Below are positions 6,151-9,989 of a DNA stretch of 14,890 bases, one piece after another (within the stretch, counting starts at the first letter, position 1; every line of letters begins with the position of its first letter). Under the pieces are notes generated by a model. That model made no database searches, had not been told where the DNA came from, and saw nothing but the letters and a program-made list of their open reading frames with translations. Location of the stretch: the NCBI GenBank assembly GCA_018668475.1, contig JABJCZ010000059.1, forward strand, positions 1 through 14,890. Reading direction: 5' to 3'. A program made the translations under genes and the position numbers. Source of the DNA: Alphaproteobacteria bacterium. GTDB lineage: Bacteria; Pseudomonadota; Alphaproteobacteria; UBA828.

Positions 6151-7173
6151 TCATTTTACACTCAGCACGATCTTTCCGATGTGATCACCGGATTCCATTC
6201 TGGCGTGTGCCGCGGCCGCGTCTGCCAGGGAATACGTCGAATCCATGACCGGGCCGATCGTGCGGCTGGCTATCAGTGGCCACACTTCTTGCTCCAGAGC
6301 CGCTGCAATCCGGGCCTTTGCTTCCACACTCTGGGGTCTCAGGGTTGAACCGGTCACGGTGAGGCGCTTGAGCATGATGGGCAGCATGTTGAACTCGATC
6401 TTGGGGCTGGCAAGGAACGCAATTTGCACCAGCCGGCCTTCAGGGCGAAGAATGGTCAGGTTTTTTTTCACGTAGTCGCCGCCGACCATGTCGAGCACAA
6501 CGTCGACGCCTTCGCCATCGGTTGCGGCCATGATTGCCTCGTCAAAGGCGTCCGAGCGGTAATTTATGGCGACCTCGGCGCCCAGATCACGGCACGCTTG
6601 GCATTTCGCATCTGAGCCTGCGGTCGTGAATACGCGCACCCCACGTTGACGGGCCAGTTGAATAGCTGTGGTGCCGATGCCGCCGGTACCGCCGTGAACA
6701 AGCAAGCGTTCGCCCGCGCCAAGTGCAGCTCGCTCGAACAGATTGGTCCAAACGGTGAAGAAAGTCTCGGGCAGGCCGGCCGCCTCAATCATGCTCAAAT
6801 CGCCCGGAATCGGCAGCGCCTGGGCAGCCGGAATCGCGCAATATTCAGCATATCCACCGCCGTTAGCCAGCGCACATACTTCGTCGCCGGGCTGAAAGCG
6901 GGCGCCAACGCTGCTCATGACGACGCGACCGGCAACCTCCAGGCCCGGCAAATCGGATGCACCGGGCGGCGGCGGGTAAACACCGGAACGCTGCAGAACG
7001 TCAGGCCGGTTTACGCCGGCAGCCTCGACGGCGATCAATATTTCACCGGCTTGTGGCCGGGGAACCGGCCTGCGGGTGGCTGTCAGTACGCTTGGGCCGC
7101 CAGGTTCGGCGATCTCCACGGCACGCATGTCGTCGGGAAGGTTCGCGGGAAGACTGGATGGAGTGTCGATCAT
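6151..7173 (-). CDS. NAD(P)H quinone oxidoreductase, PIG3 family (zinc-free MDR)
   Basis: This 340-residue medium-chain dehydrogenase/reductase should use NADPH to reduce quinones or related carbonyls in the cytosol. The nucleotide-binding Rossmann motif is HGGTGGIGTTAIQLA (160-174). The N-terminal GroES-like half includes AAGVNRPDVLQRSGVYPPPPGAS (residues 51-73), and the PIG3 hallmark TGSTLRPQS appears at 274-282. The zinc ligands of alcohol dehydrogenases are absent, as expected for this branch. The ATG at 7173 is chosen because AAGGAA lies 8 bases upstream; a later ATG at 7128, closer to the usual family N-terminus, has no ribosome site. It diverges from the DUF1192 gene 71 bases away, so their promoters overlap. 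The exact substrate is unknown. Confidence 0.93.
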   Translation of the reverse strand: MIDTPSSLPANLPDDMRAVEIAEPGGPSVLTATRRPVPRPQAGEILIAVEAAGVNRPDVLQRSGVYPPPPGASDLPGLEVAGRVVMSSVGARFQPGDEVCALANGGGYAEYCAIPAAQALPIPGDLSMIEAAGLPETFFTVWTNLFERAALGAGERLLVHGGTGGIGTTAIQLARQRGVRVFTTAGSDAKCQACRDLGAEVAINYRSDAFDEAIMAATDGEGVDVVLDMVGGDYVKKNLTILRPEGRLVQIAFLASPKIEFNMLPIMLKRLTVTGSTLRPQSVEAKARIAAALEQEVWPLIASRTIGPVMDSTYSLADAAAAHARMESGDHIGKIVLSVK

Positions 7174-7244: not shown

Positions 7245-7430
7245 ATGAACGACGATATTGCTTTACCGAAGGCGCCCGAGGGCTTCGTGCCGCGAGCACT
7301 AGATGACTTGTCGGTTGAGTCATTGAGAGTATACGCCACCGAACTTGAAGTAGAGGCCGAAAGGGTGAAAGAGGAAATCGGCCGCAAGTCAGATTACAAG
7401 GCCTCGGCTGATGCGATGTTTAGAAAGTAG
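7245..7430 (+). CDS. DUF1192 family small protein
   Basis: This 61-residue protein fits DUF1192, a short alphaproteobacterial family of unknown role. The pattern LDDLSVESLRVYATELEVEAERVKEEI is typical: a short acidic N-terminus, then one helix rich in Glu and Lys, then SADAMFRK at the end. A strong GGAGG (7234-7238) sits 6 bases before the ATG and a perfect TATAAT lies 36 bases upstream, so it is very probably expressed. It diverges from the quinone oxidoreductase gene. No terminator immediately follows; its mRNA may run into the terminator at 7612-7643. Confidence 0.9.
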   Translation: MNDDIALPKAPEGFVPRALDDLSVESLRVYATELEVEAERVKEEIGRKSDYKASADAMFRK

Positions 7431-7504: not shown

Positions 7505-7512
7505 TTAACCAT
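7505..7512 (+). promoter_or_regulatory. Possible CtrA half-site upstream of the candidate small RNA
   Basis: The sequence TTAACCAT is an exact match to the CtrA half-motif described in Alphaproteobacteria. A related TTAACGTT lies 23 bases upstream (7482-7489), and a GANTC methylation site of the CcrM type (GATTC) sits between them at 7499-7503. The placement, about 35-40 bases before the presumed RNA start, suits a promoter element. An 8-base match in AT-rich DNA can arise by chance. Confidence 0.3.
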
Positions 7513-7545
7513 TTTTTCATAAATGGCGTTTAAGTTAGGTATTGT

Positions 7546-7643
7546 GGTTGATCAGACATCTGATCACCCTCGGATTAGTCCTCCCTGATTATTCCGTCTC
7601 CCTGATCACTTGCGCCGCCCCAACGGGGCGGCGCCTTCTTTTT
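7546..7643 (+). ncRNA. Candidate trans-acting small RNA with a CUCCCU hexaloop
   Basis: Three hairpins follow one another. SL1 (7546-7569) has arms GGTTGATCAG and CTGATCACCC with one mismatch and an ACAT loop. SL2 (7571-7596) has 10-base arms with nine pairs, one of them G-U, around the exact hexaloop CUCCCU (7581-7586). SL3 (7612-7634) is a 10-bp GC stem followed by a T-rich run and is the terminator. Between SL2 and SL3 is an unpaired copy of the same motif, CTCCCTGAT (7598-7606), repeating 7581-7589. Pyrimidine-rich, anti-Shine-Dalgarno-like hairpin loops are a hallmark of several alphaproteobacterial small RNAs. The 5' end is a guess; alternatively this is the 3' UTR of the DUF1192 transcript. 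Confidence 0.55.
7612..7643 (+). terminator. Strong Rho-independent terminator
   Basis: A perfect 10-bp stem GCGCCGCCCC / GGGGCGGCGC closes a 3-base AAC loop and is followed by CTTCTTTTT. The T-run is on the plus strand only, so it ends rightward transcription. It terminates the candidate small RNA and possibly read-through from the DUF1192 gene. Confidence 0.9.
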
Positions 7644-7828: not shown

Positions 7829-8155
7829 ATGCTTAAGAACAAGCTCATCATGCGTTCGGCGATGCTTGCGCTACCGATTGCGCTCGTGGCCGGTTGCACG
7901 ACTACGCTGACCGAAGGTGATTCCGCACGAATCGCTGGTGCGGAGGCAACTGCAGCCGATGCGAAGCGTATTGCTGAAGATGCACTTATTTCACAGCGCG
8001 ATATTCGCATGGAGATTGGTGAGGCCAAGGCCGAAGCCCGCCGTGCTGCAGAAGCTGCTGAGCGTGCTGCCCAGGCTGCCGAGAATGCTGCGGCTGAAGC
8101 CAAAGCGGCGGCCGACAAGGCTGATCGCGTGTTCCAGCGTCAGATGCGCAAATAA
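7829..8155 (+). CDS. Lpp/OprI-like alanine-zipper outer-membrane lipoprotein
   Basis: This 108-residue precursor has a type II signal peptide with lipobox LVAGC, so Cys23 is the likely lipidated residue. After a short TTT linker the mature part is one long amphipathic helix with alanine heptads (AEARRAAEAAERAAQAAENA), as in OprI and Braun's lipoprotein, which trimerise through alanine zippers. It ends in ...QRQMRK; the C-terminal Arg-Lys is the same ending as OprI and Lpp, where the lysine side chain is bound to peptidoglycan. The ATG at 7829 has AAGGAG 7 bases upstream; the in-frame ATG at 7787 has no such site and would bury the signal peptide. A strong terminator follows. The convergent neighbour encodes an L,D-transpeptidase. 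Confidence 0.88.
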   Translation: MLKNKLIMRSAMLALPIALVAGCTTTLTEGDSARIAGAEATAADAKRIAEDALISQRDIRMEIGEAKAEARRAAEAAERAAQAAENAAAEAKAAADKADRVFQRQMRK

Positions 8156-8178
8156 CCTTCACTTGAGTTGAGTGATTT

Positions 8179-8214
8179 ATCGGGGCGTCCAGACGGGCGC
8201 CCCGATTGCTTTTG
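8179..8214 (+). terminator. Rho-independent terminator of the lipoprotein gene
   Basis: A 12-bp stem including one G-U pair (ATCGGGGCGTCC / GGGCGCCCCGAT) has an AGAC tetraloop and is followed by TGCTTTT. It starts 23 bases after the lipoprotein stop. The opposite strand lacks a T-run, so it is less likely to serve the convergent L,D-transpeptidase gene. Confidence 0.85.
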
Positions 8215-8326
8215 TGGCTAGTGTTGGTTTAAGTCGGCTTTGACCTTCTGATGGTCGAATAGGCTTGGGCGACCCGAGGTGCGCGTGCCGCCCCCGGGCT
8301 ATCCACGGGTCAATGTTTGGTGTGGG

Positions 8327-9295
8327 TCATTGTTCCGCGGAACGGGTGACCTGGACCGGTACGCCGCGCCGCTCAGCCAGTGTTATACGAATTGCGCTCC
8401 AATCGAGACGCGCCGTATCTGCGCCCGCGCGCTCGCGGATGCGAAACAGGATGTCGGCGGGTGAGCGCTCGCTATTTGTTATCTGCCCTTCACTTTCGAG
8501 TTGATCAGCCTGTTCTGGGTCCGGATGAGCTTCAACGTAGAGTTCACCGTTGAGCCATCCCACTTTGACAGGCCGGTTCAAGACGGCGACCGGTGTCCCC
8601 ACCGGCACGGCGCTGAACAGGCGCTCAATATCTTCGGGATACAGCCGTATACACCCGTGACTGACGCGGCGCCCGACACCCCAAGGCTGATTGGTGCCAT
8701 GGACAAGATAGCCCGGCCAATTGAAATAGAGCGCGTGGGTGCCCAGCGGATTATGCGGGCCCGGGCCAATTGCTCTCGGCAGGTCCGGGTTTTCGGCGCG
8801 GATTGATTTCGGTGGATACCAGGTGGGGCGGGCTTTTTTCCGCACAACCTCAGTAAGCCCAAGCGGCGTCGCCCAACCATCCCGTCCAACACCGATTGGA
8901 AACGTGCGTGGTGCGGCACCGGGTTTTTCAAAATAATACAGCCGATGTTCACCGAGGTTGATGACAAGGCCTTCGCGCGCGCCTTCCGGCAGAAGGTGAG
9001 CGGTGGGTAGAACAATATTTGTGCCTGTGCCAGGGACCCACGGGTCGATTCCCTGATTGGCAGCAATGATTTCAATGAACCCAAGACCGTTACTGCGTGC
9101 AAGATCAAGCAGCGTGTCCTCATAAACAGCTACATGCAGTCGGGCGGTGCCGAGCATGTCGTCGGTCAATGTCGCGGCTATTTCCGCCGGTGCAGACGCG
9201 TTTTTCGGGTTTCCGTCTTGGTCACTGGCTGCGCCGGCCGAAGCCGATACCAGAGCGAAAAGCAGAAAAATGGATAAGCGGGTCAATTTCATCAT
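8327..9295 (-). CDS. Periplasmic L,D-transpeptidase (LysM + YkuD, ErfK/YbiS type)
   Basis: The predicted protein has 322 residues. A signal peptide occupies residues 1-~22 (MMKLTRLSIFLLFALVSASA, then GAA). A LysM-like peptidoglycan-binding domain covers ~52-99, and the YkuD catalytic domain covers ~108-240. The YkuD signature is intact, with the conserved histidine in LVHGTNQPWG (197-206) and SHGCIRLYPEDI (212-223) carrying catalytic Cys215. The remaining ~80 residues are an acidic, probably flexible tail. Domain order resembles E. coli ErfK/YbiS/YcfS, which attach Lpp to peptidoglycan, so a tethering role is plausible; 3-3 crosslinking is the alternative. ATG at 9295 or 9292 gives a clean signal peptide; a further ATG at 9337 adds 14 residues without a ribosome site. 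It converges with the lipoprotein gene. Confidence 0.92.
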   Translation of the reverse strand: MMKLTRLSIFLLFALVSASAGAASDQDGNPKNASAPAEIAATLTDDMLGTARLHVAVYEDTLLDLARSNGLGFIEIIAANQGIDPWVPGTGTNIVLPTAHLLPEGAREGLVINLGEHRLYYFEKPGAAPRTFPIGVGRDGWATPLGLTEVVRKKARPTWYPPKSIRAENPDLPRAIGPGPHNPLGTHALYFNWPGYLVHGTNQPWGVGRRVSHGCIRLYPEDIERLFSAVPVGTPVAVLNRPVKVGWLNGELYVEAHPDPEQADQLESEGQITNSERSPADILFRIRERAGADTARLDWSAIRITLAERRGVPVQVTRSAEQ

Positions 9296-9575
9296 GTTCC
9301 GGGGGCGTATGTTTTTTATCAGGGGGCTGGTTGCCATAAACGACGATTACTGGTTGCCAGGGCAATAAACATAGCGGGTTTGATCGCTTCTTGGCTCAAA
9401 GCATCACGGTAAGTTGTTAGCTGAGTATGATGCGCTCGATTAGCAAACGCTTTGTTAAGCCTGCTTCGGTGATAATTGGTGATCGAATTTTCGGGTGAAG
9501 TTGAAGTATATTGCAGGGCGCTTCAATTCCCGTTTCATTGTTGGCATATCATTGAATTAGAGACAGGTTGGATCG

Positions 9576-9989
9576 GTGACAGGCGGCGGACTGGTCGATA
9601 CGACATTTTTCAGCCACACCTATGATGAGGCGTTGGCGTTGACGGTTGAAGCTCGCGACTATGTCGCGGGAGACCACGACTTTGACATGAGCCACATCGG
9701 TTTCGCCGAGCGTCTCTACTTGAGCTGCGAAACGATGCGCCTGACCAGTCGTATGACGCACATTATGTCGTGGGTATTTTTTCAGCGTGCCGCTCAGGAA
9801 GGCGAGATTACGTTGGAAGAAGCTCGCCGGGAAGAATGCCGTCTAGGCGGCGCGGTTGTCTGCCTCGGGCATGACCCCGACGTCATCGAGGTGTTGCCAT
9901 CGCGGCTTCAGGATCTGATGGAGCGGAGCTACAAGCTCTACCAGCGGATTGCCCGACTGGATCAAATGCTGGACCGTGAAATCGGCTGA
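9576..9989 (+). CDS. rcdA: RcdA-family ClpXP protease adaptor (DUF1465)
   Basis: The 137-residue protein matches DUF1465, the family of Caulobacter RcdA, which helps deliver CtrA and other substrates to ClpXP during the cell cycle. The helical core is well conserved: FFSHTYDEALALTVEARDYV (12-31), CETMRLTSRMTHIMSW (51-66) and FQRAAQEGEITLEEARRE (69-86). The C-terminus ends soon after the last core helix, so the long disordered tail of Caulobacter RcdA is absent or very short. The start is GTG at 9576, with AGGTTGG upstream; the conserved FFS...YDEA motif begins 12 residues in, supporting this start. It stands alone, convergent with the MipA-type gene 35 bases away. Whether it acts on CtrA here is inferred from the family. 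Confidence 0.87.
   Translation: MTGGGLVDTTFFSHTYDEALALTVEARDYVAGDHDFDMSHIGFAERLYLSCETMRLTSRMTHIMSWVFFQRAAQEGEITLEEARREECRLGGAVVCLGHDPDVIEVLPSRLQDLMERSYKLYQRIARLDQMLDREIG

Follow-up and report, generated by a model that had tools for sequence, protein, structure and literature searches.

The window analysed here, a 14,890-nt stretch of DNA from an alphaproteobacterium, carries a candidate small RNA on its forward strand (7546..7643). Two neighbours conserved in synteny lie upstream: a gene for a quinone-oxidoreductase-type dehydrogenase (6151..7173, reverse strand; PF00107 and PF08240), the start codon of which is unsettled, and a DUF1192 gene (7245..7430, forward strand; PF06698). Between DUF1192 and the RNA is a CtrA-type box, TTAA-CCATTTT-TTCA (7505..7519, forward strand), which matches 7/8 letters of the motif and has counterparts ahead of the RNA in relatives, with position and spacing unchanged. 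Downstream are two neighbours typical of the host's family, a small lipoprotein gene (7829..8155, or from 7787, forward strand; PF11839) and an L,D-transpeptidase gene (8327..9337, reverse strand; PF03734), and then a DUF1465 gene (9576..9989, forward strand; PF07323), 1.9 kb from the RNA. In many class relatives DUF1465 is directly downstream of the RNA (for example at L083); here the lipoprotein and L,D-transpeptidase genes (7829-9337) separate the two.

At 8/10 loci of the host's family, quinone oxidoreductase, DUF1192, RNA, lipoprotein and L,D-transpeptidase are found together and in the same order. The exceptions are the G012 locus, which ends at a contig end, and the G009 locus, which has an extra ORF between DUF1192 and the RNA and at which the lipoprotein and transpeptidase genes were not found.

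Fold and conservation of the RNA

The RNA consists of two stem-loops, two copies of a C-rich seed and an intrinsic terminator, all on the forward strand. Stem-loop 1 (SL1) occupies 7546..7568. Stem-loop 2 (SL2) occupies 7571..7596 and presents CUCCCU in its loop (7581-7586). A sequence-only reading had described SL2 as an exact CUCCCU hexaloop closed by nine pairs; the sequence and the minimum-energy fold bear this out, with one G.U among the nine pairs and a single U.U mismatch (7575/7592). The same reading was right about a second copy of CTCCCTGAT between SL2 and the terminator and about the terminator itself. The seed copies lie at 7581..7589 and 7598..7606, and the second is aligned with the CUCCCU of BjrC1505 and suhB. 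Neither strand of the window has a further CTCCCTGAT; two or more copies arise in 1/200 shuffles. The terminator (7612..7643) has 10 pairs and is supported by the fold, a terminator scan and covariation. Its tail, CTTCTTTTT, is not an uninterrupted T run. The 98-nt RNA folds at -42.3 kcal/mol (z -5.9; equal stability in 0/200 shuffles), and the terminator supplies a large share of this stability. The 30 nt holding SL2 have a z of -3.4 on their own in the window sequence. The 3' side of SL1 (CTGATCACCCTC, 7559-7572) presumably resembles the 3' end of 16S rRNA; it is not kept in the SL1 of relatives.

A blastn search of 60 relatives gives matches with E < 1e-8 in four genomes besides the source window. 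A pattern search finds the RNA in 8/21 family genomes, the source genome included. The covariance model R1, built from these eight RNAs, finds it in 10/21 and has no match in the other 11/21. The family alignment (A3) holds eight of the ten RNAs; those of G009 and G016 came to light later. In the eight aligned RNAs, 94.7% of the cells of SL1 and the terminator are paired and 17 cells are changed on both sides, values reached in 0/500 shuffles. Six pairs are changed on both sides (25/500 shuffles), and the value for further pair types is reached in 96/500. CCUCCCU of copy 1 and UCCCUG of copy 2 are invariant among the eight; over all ten, CUCCCU of copy 1 is kept in 8/10 and YUCCCUG of copy 2 in 9/10. 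Folding leaves both copies exposed (at least 68% unpaired) in 8/8 RNAs. Presence in 10/21 family genomes, covariation, seed conservation and exposure support the proposal that the small RNA is conserved and exposes its C-rich motif twice.

Related loci are found throughout the class. A scan for the seed pattern gives at least 118 loci. Removal of ten that lack a T run (three of which have the neighbours described above) leaves, among the matches listed, 108 named loci that combine TTTGAYGCCTCCCTGTT with a T run. Among these, quinone oxidoreductase, DUF1192 or DUF1465 adjoins the RNA in 100/108, and such neighbours are on both sides in 54/108. One or more of these three genes also lies beside the RNA at 26/30 loci of the BjrC1505 type (Rfam RF02356), the exceptions being L100, L104, L106 and L108. 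R1 has six class matches outside the family: L081-L083 have BjrC1505 neighbours and L084-L086 do not. L085 looks alpha-r8-like. At L110 (G395:C6:79514-79656 and 79714-79860), two RF02356-type RNAs stand in tandem, about 200 nt apart.

SL2 behaves differently from the rest of the RNA. In the eight aligned family RNAs, the nine-pair stem has 74.6% of its cells paired (22.5-53.5% when the stem is slid) and zero pairs changed on both sides; shuffling left the SL2 measures unchanged, so this control is uninformative. Pair 37-59 is missing in 7/8 RNAs and the two loop-closing pairs in 4/8. When the SL2 stretch is folded in each of the eight, the mean z is -0.8. Three other family genomes have a shifted hairpin with the loop ACCUCC (z -1.0 to -2.2), and in four z is above 0. 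The sequence-only reading had proposed an alignment of relatives as a check for paired changes in both stem-loops with CUCCCU kept: SL1 (with the terminator) covaries and CUCCCU is kept in most, but SL2 has no two-sided changes. The hexaloop as a conserved presenting device is not upheld, as close relatives do not keep its nine-pair stem.

In the wider class, 37 RNAs were aligned (A4; MAFFT). This set comprises 25/29 dereplicated named loci and 14/15 hand-picked RF02356-type loci, minus two with truncated ends; L136, L194, L199 and L201 were left out by judgement. The consensus fold is weak (-1.7 kcal/mol) and the alignment is not structure-aware, so the 30 nt before each seed were folded individually. 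A hairpin precedes the seed in 33/37 (z < -1; mean -2.6), and its loop often contains or adjoins UCCU. Since this hairpin is widespread in the class but weak in the family, SL2 looks like an ancestral element that has weakened in the host's family.

The CtrA-type box and its predicted binding factor

The CtrA motif is given as TTAA-N7-TTAA (PMC12403871), and sites with other spacing are described as weakly bound (PMC3616915). CtrA-activated promoters of Caulobacter are reported to have mostly one site, at -35 (PMC11264516). The window holds four 7-of-8 matches to the motif against 1.5 expected; such matches are not rare there, so the box at 7505..7519 is not significant on its own. The evidence comes from relatives. 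A TTAA-N7-TTAA site with at least 7/8 letters lies upstream of the RNA in 9/10 family loci (shuffle mean 1.4), and two of these sites are perfect. Spacings of N11 (6/10) and N3 (5/10) score in the family too, and at four family loci (L069, L071, L072 and L078) the best 7-of-8 box chosen by the script is in a register other than that of the box described here.

The class gives a larger sample. Four of the 108 named loci among the matches listed were dropped for having less than 140 nt upstream, and removal of 20 near-duplicates from the remaining 104 gave 84. Among these matches, the box is present with at least 7/8 letters in 80/84 loci (100/104 before dereplication), against a shuffle mean of 8.5 and a largest shuffle value of 17. 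L199 (Lentisphaerae) and L201 (Flavobacteriaceae), which were retained in the set, account for two of the four misses. In 82/84 named loci among the matches listed, the box precedes the seed pattern by 67-86 nt. It is found in 51/8589 other stretches of the same loci and in 29/591 AT-rich stretches. It is absent from 18 alpha-r8 control loci, one per genome and taken from 26 matches over the cut-off, although 130 nt were searched in these and 85 in the test. RF02356-type loci have the box in 29/30, a biased count because the RF02356 model itself contains the promoter stretch; the R1 and seed-pattern loci are free of this bias.

It is unlikely, though conceivable, that the RNA is as proposed but its TTAA-N7-TTAA site serves a factor other than CtrA or belongs to the core promoter. 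Spacing bears on this in two ways. Among the matches listed, 47/84 named loci also have an N13 site at 7/8 letters or better (N6 29, N8 8), and N13 is thus frequent. Perfect sites, on the other hand, number 41/84 at N7 (0.7 in shuffles), 8 at N13, and at most four at each of the remaining spacings between 2 and 13 (none at N6 or N8), again among the matches listed; the weak binding of CtrA to sites with other spacing, noted above, also argues for CtrA. The distribution of CtrA was surveyed with a CtrA query. A full-length CtrA-like match (66-85% identity) is present in 25 of the 30 class genomes that carry the RNA, and a partial one in three, which again favours CtrA. G133 and G229, however, have perfect boxes without a CtrA match above 38% identity, and in the host's family the site is kept, in imperfect form, in genomes where CtrA was not found. 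With this query, a CtrA orthologue is detected in only 2/21 family genomes (E up to 1e-40). It was not found in the source genome, which is 78% complete and has four regulators with PF00486; its best-matching protein has 34% identity to the query. Of the ten family genomes with the RNA, only the two with CtrA have perfect boxes (Fisher p 0.022), an exploratory comparison noticed after the fact.

CtrA binding to the box is a prediction. Because a CtrA-type box recurs at the promoters of class relatives, CtrA probably controlled the ancestral RNA. Its control may have changed in the host's family, where most of the genomes searched show no CtrA.

Relation to catalogued RNA families

A covariance check against Rfam did not place the RNA: no family is matched at the gathering score. 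The sequence-only reading had pointed to the cuckoo/CcsR type, and this identity (alpha-r14) is rejected. There is no CCUCCUCCC in 7546-7643, and the upstream gene encodes DUF1192, not DUF1127. The likeness lies in a repeated anti-Shine-Dalgarno motif in unpaired parts; alpha-r14 RNAs are described with CCUCCUCCC in three hairpins (PMC10746234), and for CcsR a unit shared with a DUF1127 gene is reported (PMC10253847).

Two families score below their cut-offs. BjrC1505 (RF02356) gives 23.1 bits on the window RNA (cut-off 50) and 19.7-29.9 on family members. The suhB model (RF00519; alpha-r8, MmgR, SisA) gives 29.4 bits (E 2.7e-4 on 371 bases; cut-off 41). At E up to 0.05, suhB matches 4/6 family loci and BjrC1505 1/6. 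At a loose threshold, RF02356 has 10 weak matches in 7 of the 21 family genomes, 6/10 of them on this locus, and 7/14 control genomes match too.

Membership of alpha-r8 is improbable, for all that these RNAs likewise have a weak hairpin and, ahead of a terminator, an exposed CUCCCU, with anti-Shine-Dalgarno action by analogy. The suhB scores just given favour it, and the window RNA is the second-best suhB match of the source genome. That score is nevertheless under the cut-off, and another stretch of the source genome, C50:6850-6928, scores higher (32.3 bits). The neighbour genes are different, being those of BjrC1505 loci: most alpha-r8 RNAs are said to adjoin an N-formylglutamate amidohydrolase gene (PMC12559287), and none was found among six neighbouring window proteins scanned. 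The lack of the CtrA-type box at all 18 alpha-r8 loci counts against it as well; the SisA-D promoters are reported to have no motif in common (PMC12559287). The alpha-r8 core is given as UUUCCUCCCU, single-stranded (PMC12559287). Copy 1 of the window has UCCUCCCU (8/10 letters) and copy 2 has UCUCCCU.

We instead read the RNA as a diverged, double-seed form of the BjrC1505-locus RNA, and not as an Rfam-grade member. Despite the score below the cut-off, this assignment is made by synteny, because the neighbour genes (quinone oxidoreductase, DUF1192 and DUF1465) are shared. Also alike are SL1, a hairpin, an exposed CUCCCUG, the terminator and the upstream CtrA-type box. The hairpin directly before the exposed CUCCCUG and terminator is seen in the window and in 33/37 class RNAs, and is weak or absent in most family members. 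The window RNA differs from BjrC1505 in its second CUCCCU copy, and the host's family in the lipoprotein and L,D-transpeptidase genes placed before DUF1465.

Two further matches should be mentioned. The higher-scoring suhB-like stretch of the source genome (L050 1501-1579) has AAACCTCCCTGTTGACT before its terminator and is a possible alpha-r8 sibling. At L077 (1504-1683, reverse strand), a weak GcvB match (27.2 of 42 bits, E 0.015) lies over the G009 family RNA.

Proposed function and targets

We favour, with fair confidence, a trans-acting RNA of about 100 nt that directs CUCCCUG seeds against ribosome sites, is the BjrC1505-locus form in this family, and was probably under CtrA control ancestrally. 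Such an RNA would start near 7540-7546 and end at 7643. Its seeds would pair with G-rich ribosome sites and repress the mRNAs concerned. Blocking of ribosome sites is suggested by analogy: SisA-D are described as having a common CUCCCU core, as repressing many mRNAs via an anti-Shine-Dalgarno 10-mer and as being sponged by CrfA (PMC12559287). In the host's family the seed is doubled, with the old copy (7598-7606) in the linker before the terminator and the second at the position of SL2; two seeds could allow tighter or double binding. The RNA does precede a same-strand gene, the lipoprotein gene here and DUF1465 at class loci such as L083 and L087, but a role as leader or attenuator of that gene instead is very improbable: the terminator is strong, and family and class have different genes downstream although both keep the seed, the terminator and the position of the promoter.

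BjrC1505 is catalogued; in the open-licence literature its name turned up as a table entry in one paper, and neither a described function for it nor a report of CtrA control of the RNA at its locus was found. Among RNAs linked to the cell cycle, CcnA of Caulobacter is reported to have a CtrA box (PMC8959179). By its description it is set apart: it is 182 nt long, lies at the replication origin and uses a CCCC loop. GspR is reported to repress ctrA, to lack a known promoter signature and to have turned up only in Sinorhizobium (PMC5928217). The broader idea is finely balanced: a class-wide, CtrA-controlled anti-Shine-Dalgarno RNA would tie the cell cycle to the translation of numerous mRNAs, and would persist, with its seed doubled, in a family most of whose genomes seem to have lost CtrA. 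The CtrA-type box common to relatives makes a role for BjrC1505 in the cell-cycle network open to test, and the family genomes without detectable CtrA offer a natural comparison.

Targets were sought in ten named genomes with a start-site pattern, which matched in 10 rows (0 for the reversed pattern); one row is the RNA's own locus and two rows are one site. No gene is common to the translated matches. At L252 (G411), the gene for a 501-aa protein, to all appearance a transporter substrate-binding protein, has AACAGGGAGGC 4 bases ahead of its start codon; this stretch is complementary to the BjrC1505 seed.
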